From: Chitinophaga pinensis
GTDB lineage: Bacteria; Bacteroidota; Bacteroidia; Chitinophagales; Chitinophagaceae
Reading direction: 5' to 3'
Length of the DNA: 64,000 bases
NCBI RefSeq assembly: GCF_007896845.1
Contig: NZ_VOHS01000005.1
Span: 124,001-188,000 of the forward strand
Part shown: piece after piece, positions 36,271 through 53,706 of the stretch
Position numbering within the stretch: the stretch's first letter is position 1
Layout: every line of letters starts with the position of its first letter
Notes under the pieces: generated by a model
Told to the model about the DNA's origin: nothing
The model's input: the letters and a program-made list of their open reading frames with translations, nothing else
Database searches by the model: none
Position numbers and translations under genes: made by a program

Positions 36271-36570
36271 TTATTGAAATTTTTTCTCTTTCGATCTCTT
36301 TATCTGGTTAACAACTGAGTCAAAGGCGAGATCAAATGACTCCTCGAAAGATTTGGATTCGTGCTTTACAAATAAGTCTTGGCGCGGGATGTGGACTTTT
36401 ATTTCGGCTATTTTATCCTTCACCTGATGAGCTATTCCATCAAGTTTTAAAAATACCTCTACGCTGATAATCCGATCATAGAAAGTATTGAGTTTCTGAA
36501 GTTTTTTACTCACATGATCAATCAATTTGGAGTCAGCGTCGAAGTGTACTGTTTGAATTTGAACGTTCAT
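36271..36570 (-). CDS. hpf: Ribosome hibernation-promoting factor, short HPF/YfiA type
   Basis: 99 residues from the ATG at 36570; an upstream extension to 36624 lacks conservation (HPF proteins begin MxVQIQxVHF). The fold has the beta-alpha-beta-beta-beta-alpha pattern with VDH-like SKLIDHVSKKLQKL and the basic VKHESKSFEESFDLAFDSVVNQIKRSKEKK helix. It lacks the long C-terminal dimerisation domain, so it is a short form that blocks the decoding region of the 30S subunit in stationary phase. It lies downstream of xerC but is separated from it by the decayed repeat array of about 360 bp. Confidence 0.92.
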   Translation of the reverse strand: MNVQIQTVHFDADSKLIDHVSKKLQKLNTFYDRIISVEVFLKLDGIAHQVKDKIAEIKVHIPRQDLFVKHESKSFEESFDLAFDSVVNQIKRSKEKKFQ

Positions 36571-36755
36571 AGCACTAATTTTTAGTTTTAACAATCTTGT
36601 ACATGCTCGTAACATTACGTCCATAGGCTTTCATTGTGTTAATGGTCATGGATATCGACTAATGAAAAAAGTATACAAAGAACTCATTACTAATTTAATG
36701 AACTTTCAACTCTTTTGCATAACCATTTAGTAATATTTTGTTAAAGCTTTCCGAC

Positions 36756-37115
36756 TTCCCTCTTCGCCCTTCAACTGTTTCCTCCGGTACGCCACCTTCA
36801 ATTGCTCAATAATGCTATGTGTAACTCCCCTGCCCGCCCACCAGATGCACCCTCCGGTACGCTTCCTTCAATTGCTCAATACTATCATGTACATGTATCT
36901 CCGTACACACCAGACCAGCACGCGACCGGCAGCTCCTTCATTGCATGGAGGTCCGCACTATGTATAACGCCTCTATTCATTCTCCGGATGCACCCTCAGA
37001 TACGCTTCGCGCAATTGCTCAATACTATCATGTACATGTATCTCCGTACACACCAGACCCGCACGCGACCGGCAACTCCTTCATTGCATGAAGACCCACG
37101 CTACATGCAACGCCC
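36756..37115 (-). repeat. Decayed tandem copies of the xerC 3' end (143-bp period)
   Basis: Three extra, diverged, partial copies follow the xerC stop codon. An anchor (ATTGCTCAAT) occurs at 36801, 36871 and 37014 and matches ATTTCTCAAT inside xerC at 37157, giving spacings of 70, 143 and 143 bp. On the minus strand each copy encodes remnants of the XerC tail (for example DSIEQLREAYLRVHPE against NSIEKLKEAYRKAHPK), in shifting frames because 143 is not a multiple of 3. The catalytic Tyr position is not Tyr in the copies. A plus-strand 172-codon frame over this region is a by-product. Confidence 0.85.
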
Positions 37116-38060
37116 CTACTCGCCCTTCGGATGTGCCTTCCTGTACGCCTCCTTCAATTTCTCAATACTGTTATGTGTATATACCTGCGTGGACGCCAGA
37201 CTGGCATGCCCCAGCAGCTCCTTTACTGCATTGAGGTCCGCGCCGTTATTGGTAAGATGGGTAGCAAACGTATGCCGCAGTATATGCGGACTCCTGCGAC
37301 TGATCGTCGTGATCTCGTGATCTGTGAGGTAACCTTTTACAACGTTATATACATAACGGGGGTATAACTTCTTTCCGCTACGGGGATTCACCAGCAACAC
37401 CTCTTTATCCGGCATTTCCAGCTCTTTATTGCGCATATCCCTGTATGCCCTGATCTCGTCCCGTAAGTTTGTACTAATGGGAATAATGCGCTCCTTATTC
37501 CCTTTTCCCAACACTTTCAATGTCAGATTGGAGATGTCTACATGCCGCTCCTGCAAACCTATCAGCTCTGACAACCGTATGCCCGTATGATACAACAACT
37601 CAAATATCAACCGGTGCGTCTTCCCCTCAAGGTCATCCGTAAATATAGGCCGGTCCTCCTGTCCACGACGCATACTCCGGTTATCCTCCACCGCCTGCAT
37701 CCCCTTCTCATCAATAAAACCCGGTAAACGCTTTCCCGTTTTGGGCGCAGTCACTTTTGTCATCGGTGAAGTCGCTACTACACCATGACGCATCGCATAC
37801 TTGAAAAATGATTTAAGTGTGGAAATCTTGCGGTTAACACTTTTGGCAATAATGCCCTCCTCCATCAGCCACGCCAGCCAGGTACGGACATGCAAATGCG
37901 ATATGCCTTGTAGAGACACATCGCCATATTGTGATCTGAGGAAAATAAAAAATTGTGTAAGGTCCTGCTGATATGCAGTGAAAGTATGCGCAGAATAGCG
38001 CTTCTCCAGTTGGATATAAGCCAGAAATTGATTGGCTACCGGGTGTAAAACTTCACTCAA
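37116..38060 (-). CDS. xerC: Tyrosine recombinase XerC/XerD
   Basis: 314 residues. The N-terminal SAM-like core-binding domain (about 5-95) is followed by the catalytic domain with Arg of LYHTGIRLSELIGL, Lys of LGKGNKERIIPI, the HxLRHTFATHL box (HILRHTFATHLTNNGADLNAVKELLGHASL) and the Tyr nucleophile in TQVYTH. It resolves chromosome dimers at dif with a partner recombinase. The start is a TTG at 38060: there is no ATG in frame and the N-terminal domain is complete from there. It begins 11 bp after the rpsU terminator hairpin. Its last 40 codons are the source of the downstream repeats. Confidence 0.95.
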   Translation of the reverse strand: MSEVLHPVANQFLAYIQLEKRYSAHTFTAYQQDLTQFFIFLRSQYGDVSLQGISHLHVRTWLAWLMEEGIIAKSVNRKISTLKSFFKYAMRHGVVATSPMTKVTAPKTGKRLPGFIDEKGMQAVEDNRSMRRGQEDRPIFTDDLEGKTHRLIFELLYHTGIRLSELIGLQERHVDISNLTLKVLGKGNKERIIPISTNLRDEIRAYRDMRNKELEMPDKEVLLVNPRSGKKLYPRYVYNVVKGYLTDHEITTISRRSPHILRHTFATHLTNNGADLNAVKELLGHASLASTQVYTHNSIEKLKEAYRKAHPKGE

Positions 38061-53342: not shown

Positions 53343-53373
53343 TTTGTTAGTTATTTCAAATGGTGTACATTTG
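53343..53373 (+). promoter_or_regulatory. Promoter of SRP RNA (TTTG-N19-TACATTTG)
   Basis: TTTG at 53343-53346 and TACATTTG at 53366-53373, 19 bp apart; the implied start at about 53379-53381 coincides with the RNA 5' end. Confidence 0.85.
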
Positions 53374-53377
53374 CACC

Positions 53378-53474
53378 CGGCAAGTCTTATACGACCAGCT
53401 CCTACTGAACTCCCCCAGGACAGGAATGTAGCAAGGGTAGGTGGTTGTAGCGGTGCGATGTAAGTAACTTGCCG
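53378..53474 (+). ncRNA. ffs: Signal recognition particle RNA (small bacterial 4.5S type)
   Basis: About 97 nt. The terminal helix CGGCAAG/CTTGCCG closes the structure, the apical region includes AGGACAGGAATGTAGCAAGG, whose GGAA loop is the Ffh-binding SRP tetraloop segment, and the T9 run after 53474 is the terminator. It forms the SRP with Ffh and targets nascent membrane proteins. Confidence 0.95.
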
Positions 53475-53706
53475 TTTTTTTTTCTTTTTATTCCCGGTCA
53501 TCAGGCGTCATTCAGACACTATTCAACTCTCTTTAAAATAAAGATGCCCGGAGAATCTGCCCAATGCTTTCCAACTGTTTATTCGCGTGATTGTCCGGTT
53601 TCTGTATTCATTAAAAGATGAATAGTTGAATACTGTTGATTATGTATTATTTGTTGCGTACTATTGTACCGGCAATTTTATTTAAAAAGGACTAAATCAT
53701 TTCACA

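Follow-up and report, generated by a model that had tools for sequence, protein, structure and literature searches.

A decayed tandem array of the xerC gene end between xerC and hpf in Chitinophaga pinensis

The end of xerC in Chitinophaga pinensis is followed by further copies of itself, which separate it from hpf. The array probably formed by small tandem duplications of the gene end in this species' own lineage, and the extra copies have since been decaying as presumably nonfunctional DNA. The window, meaning the whole stretch analyzed, is 64,000 nucleotides of contig NZ_VOHS01000005.1. Within it, the final 41 xerC codons and a further 15 nt recur on the minus strand in two complete copies of 143 bp and a partial one of 70 bp, the order being xerC end (u0), u1, u2, u3, hpf leader, hpf (Table 1). 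The xerC gene remains intact, since the upstream copy stays whole when the duplicated segment takes in the stop codon.

Table 1. Features of the xerC–hpf region, in window coordinates.
Feature	Coordinates	Strand	Basis
xerC, tyrosine recombinase, 314 aa, TTG start as listed, intact	37116..38060	-	ORF, NCBIfam, orthologues
u0, functional xerC 3' end plus 15 nt past the stop; upstream array member	37101..37243	-	unit alignment, translation
u1, first decayed full copy; gapped identity 98/142 to u0	36958..37100	-	unit alignment
u2, second decayed full copy; gapped identity 108/142 to u0, 120/143 to u1	36815..36957	-	unit alignment
u3, partial copy and old xerC end, running on into the conserved hpf leader	36745..36814	-	comparison with nearest species
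hpf leader or promoter region, conserved	36571..36744	-	97-98% identical in two nearest species
hpf/yfiA, ribosome hibernation factor	36271..36570	-	TIGR00741, orthologues

The initial annotation reported that the xerC end recurs three times downstream of the stop codon, with anchors 143, 143 and 70 bp apart, and this is what we find. The units abut with nothing in between, u0, u1 and u2 are in register, and the spacings are 70, 143 and 143. The partial unit has 66 matched nt at 36758-36823; u3 agrees with the xerC end at 53/66 positions, or 50/68 with gaps. When 36745-37243 is compared with itself without gaps, the best 143-nt match scores 121 and falls at offset 143, far above 200 dinucleotide shuffles (mean 58.1, maximum 67); over 100 nt, the score is 93 versus a shuffle maximum of 53. 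Tandem Repeats Finder (TRF) reports a period of 143 with a score of 456, the next best score within the window being 52. An assembly artefact is unlikely because the window is interior to a 314,777-base contig and the copies diverge from one another by 16-40%.

XerC matches NCBIfam model TIGR02224 (recomb_XerC) at E 5.5e-87 with 291.9 bits, under the curated cut-off of 335.15, and its orthologues in the two nearest species (G068 and G035) are 96% identical. The hpf product matches TIGR00741 at E 2.7e-10 with 40.6 bits, slightly below the cut-off of 40.9; its identity is 98% in both nearest species, and its reading frame is undisturbed. The hpf leader of about 170 bp is 97-98% identical not only in G068 and G035 but also in L011, and 95% identical in L005, despite XerC being just 78-79% identical in L011 and L005. 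The motifs GCCTAT and AGATTG are invariant in the leader in 30/30 loci, and RNAalifold returned an empty structure for it. Elsewhere in the window, a small SRP RNA of the Bacteroidales type (Rfam RF04183, E 1.4e-20) is found at 53371-53478 on the plus strand.

The relationship of the array to the original gene end is seen by comparison with relatives. Between the xerC stop and the hpf start lie 545 bp in this genome, versus 189 bp in G068 and 191 bp in G035. The excess over G068 is 356 bp, exactly 143+143+70, and over G035 it is 354 bp, so that the short interval of the relatives fits an empty site lacking the summed copies. The end of u3 runs on into AGCTTTAACAAAATATTAC, the stretch that follows xerC in G068 and G035, and u3 and the two nearest species have the post-stop sequence and the hpf leader in common. 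Given this shared continuation, u3 is the old gene end, and the working end of xerC is the upstream copy, u0. The initial reading of the array is thereby corrected on one point: the original downstream DNA continues from the copy beside hpf rather than from the one on xerC.

The array is confined to this genome among the loci compared. A search of 79 genomes of the genus with a 556-nt query gave matches in 70 and none in 9. Loci from 30 were compared, the window's included, the other 40 matching genomes being without a fetched locus. The xerC–hpf interval ranges from 147 to 493 bp across the 29 other loci, and none of them has a copy of the xerC end (17 judged by blastn, 10 by reading, and L011 and L026, with intervals of 191 and 162 bp, by length alone). 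The nearest thing in the blastn set of 17 is a 38-nt antisense match in L020 (E 0.056), and nothing stands out; no own-xerC copy was detected in the longer intervals of other species. Outside the window's genome, no genus match extends past query position 187 (the xerC stop is at 185), and six additional matches, located elsewhere, are partial and weak. No genus-wide hotspot at the xerC end is seen in the 29 other loci examined. When the 41-residue XerC tail was sought in 294 genomes of the family, 290 matched, most with two matches. The 24 with three or four tail matches, besides the window's, were inspected for position, and among these and the window's genome, extra tail matches within 1 kb of the best xerC match occur in the window's genome only. 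One genome (G300) has two weak tail matches 0.8 kb apart on another contig. A family-wide hotspot is likewise not seen among those 24.

The extra copies carry the marks of lost coding function that had been noticed at first inspection. Where xerC reads TQVYTHN, u1 and u2 both read TEIHVHD; the tyrosine in this motif is the nucleophile of the recombinase family. A single 1-nt insertion common to u1 and u2 shifts the frame, and u3 ends short of the tyrosine region. The terminal stop is retained in u1 and gone in u2 and u3. As they stand, u1 and u2 are unable to restore XerC. Relative to the inferred ancestor, u1 has 42/128 changes, u2 31/128 and u3 16/57, compared to 7/129 in u0. Transitions predominate (32/42, 24/31 and 9/16 in u1, u2 and u3), and all four bases are affected. 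At columns 84, 102 and 106, u1, u2 and u3 agree against u0 and both nearest species, and because of these three common states, the copies appear to share a decayed ancestor or to have exchanged sequence. The middle copies had been described as closer to each other than to xerC. That is so over the whole unit (120/143), but the closeness is confined to one 79-bp stretch with 2 differences, and 21/64 positions differ in the rest (Fisher p 8e-7; 0/20000 permutations). The near-identical stretch points to a later conversion or unequal exchange between u1 and u2.

The descent of the copies was examined with an alignment of 11 of the 29 other xerC genes and a tree of the 4 units plus 10 relatives (L017 omitted; columns up to 139). 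The topology is (u0,(u3,(u1,u2))), with support of 90/86 for the four units, 94/90 for the three copies and 93/72 for u1 with u2; u0 sits on a branch of 0.013, and u1, u2 and u3 are on long branches. On its 137 columns, no branch hits the program's strong-support mark, and two named outgroup rows failed to group. Neither u1 nor u2 has a closer match than u0 among the 11 other aligned xerC genes, and a foreign origin of the copies is not favoured. Descent of the copies from the local xerC is supported by these sequence comparisons, the units and u0 appearing on one side of a branch of moderate support. The shared states are mixed. At columns 4, 68, 86 and 87, the units (where present) match u0 against both nearest species, but each of those states is also found in some more distant species and may thus be an old state that was kept. 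Every full copy sides with the two nearest species against u0 at column 19, as do u1 and u2 at column 110 and u2 at column 1.

The timing sits uneasily with an origin in this lineage. The synonymous distance (dS) of xerC is 0.47 to G068 and 0.48 to G035, or about 0.24 per lineage. Setting the copy changes against this half of dS, the copies appear as old as, or older than, the species split, and both nearest species are without the array. That leaves three options: the array may have begun near the split, the copies may outpace synonymous sites, or an older array may have been lost in the relatives. The last of these is the foremost alternative to an origin after the split. It supposes the same tandem duplication before the split, followed by recombination between u0 and u3 in the nearest species that restored the short interval. 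It draws on the decay of the copies beyond half of dS and on an AU test in which u0 grouped with the two species, apart from the copies, was not rejected (p 0.099). The states shared by the units and u0 are present in more distant species too, which raises its odds and lowers those of the favoured reading. However, the tree joins all the units with u0, and a loss would be required in every examined descendant of the array-bearing ancestor, with 0/29 other loci showing the array. We regard this older origin as rather unlikely, and we take the array to have arisen after the split from the nearest species.

Small tandem partial-gene duplications in bacteria arise by replication slippage or short-homology joining, and a series of such events would produce the array. 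In the first, some 70 bp between a point within the final codons (near ACACATA) and a point just past the stop would be duplicated in tandem, leaving the old end (u3) joined to the hpf leader. A 143-bp tandem duplication would follow, with one end near codon 274, where it starts, and the other in the newly formed junction. A further 143 bp would be gained via unequal exchange between copies, with conversion of the 79-bp stretch of u1 and u2. Finally, coding would be lost in u1 to u3 by the 1-nt insertion, the change of Tyr to His and the lost stops. We infer this order, with the 70-bp duplication before the 143-bp steps, because the u2/u3 junction has ACACATA, which is also inside the unit, at an offset of 70 bp once two periods are subtracted. 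The initial proposal of tandem duplication and decay, with the middle copies amplified or converged later, is supported by the spacing, the alignment, the tree and the 79-bp mosaic. Of the two mechanisms then suggested, slippage, or short-homology joining, stands as the simplest presumed cause, and together with exchange between copies it is enough for the observations, the age question aside.

A function for the array, for instance shielding hpf from transcription of xerC or folding into a DNA or RNA structure, is very improbable. The near identity of u1 and u2 over 79 bp could be taken as a sign that the array was retained, but conversion accounts for that identity. Furthermore, no Rfam family reaches its gathering threshold in the array, the minimum-energy folds of u0, u1 and u2 differ (as computed without a shuffle control), and the examined relatives manage without the array. 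We presume that it has none.

The other mechanism initially suggested, strand exchange by the recombinase on its own gene, found no support. It would make the xerC end an unstable spot at which copies were made by XerC or XerCD, or by a mobile element reusing the gene end as an attachment site. Gene ends are favoured targets of integrative elements, the duplicated part is a gene end, and the units lie head to tail. However, there is no dif-like core with up to 3 mismatches in the window. This is a weak test, since the exact core of the E. coli-like pattern used is absent from 5/5 genomes searched and the pattern may not fit this lineage. In addition, the units abut without anything between them, and u1 and u2 have the disabling changes described above. 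Either form of this idea is extremely unlikely. A diversity-generating retroelement, whose template and variable repeat pairs resemble the array in placing a repeated segment of roughly 140 bp at the 3' end of a gene, is rejected since the substitutions in the xerC array are not limited to adenines (12/31 changes in u2 are at A, and the rest are at G, C and T).

The array was also placed among the other tandem repeats of the genome, using a non-random sample of 81 pieces (1,624,109 bases, mainly contigs C1, C2, C3 and C5) in which ORFs are greedy calls of at least 80 codons and not annotated genes. In the TRF output, 27 rows had a period of at least 40. Merging these by hand left 20 arrays, and 15/20, the xerC array included, are not wholly inside called ORFs. 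The three other arrays checked, all three, also differ in the nearest species in the distance between flanking matches. For L087, it is 133 bp in G035 versus 537 here, and 490 versus 502 in the case of G068, which has no match in between; for L085, 186 (G068) versus 744 and 364 (G035) versus 756; and for L056, 219 (G068) versus 448, the flanking matches overlapping in G035. When 1269 ORF ends were compared to up to 1000 bases downstream, 7 reached 60 bits or more: xerC, five short ORFs of 108-129 codons that lie inside or beside arrays and are unlikely to be genes, and a long ORF with an end similar to part of the long ORF that follows it. Comparing 1218 ORF starts to upstream DNA gave 4 at 60 bits or more. 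The xerC array sequence has no match elsewhere in the sampled part. The TRF and ORF-end surveys place the xerC array within the common run of non-genic tandem arrays of this genome, from which it is set apart by its inclusion of a gene end.

Some other repeats in the sample are of note in themselves. Large arrays with periods of 276, 205, 290 and 312 lie at L106:16417-18796, L078:4632-5682, L059:9716-10512 and L059:11010-11893. The two in L059 are mutually related, and sequences related to the L078 unit occur in L051. A segment of some 34 bp that immediately precedes a gene start (L085:12245-12278) recurs in both orientations; of the matches to the query, 15/17 in G035, 5/7 in G068 and 3/7 in G000 are short ones at this segment.

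An abstract-level literature search for tandem repeats at xerC in Chitinophaga gave no match, and we do not claim absence from print. Like known tandem partial-gene duplications, the array has direct copies in register beside the parent gene, abutting head to tail, with the upstream gene intact and the extra copies decaying; it differs in apparently having undergone three steps in one place, gene end included. It resembles intergenic minisatellite-like arrays in having a period of tens to hundreds of bp, and the three of these checked vary in the nearest species; unlike it, no other array in the sample was seen with a recognised gene end. The array has the look of an ordinary duplication of DNA that then decayed neutrally, and it brings no new mechanism. 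It is a tidy natural case of gene-end tandem duplication, in which the working and the discarded copies stand side by side and close relatives have the empty site.
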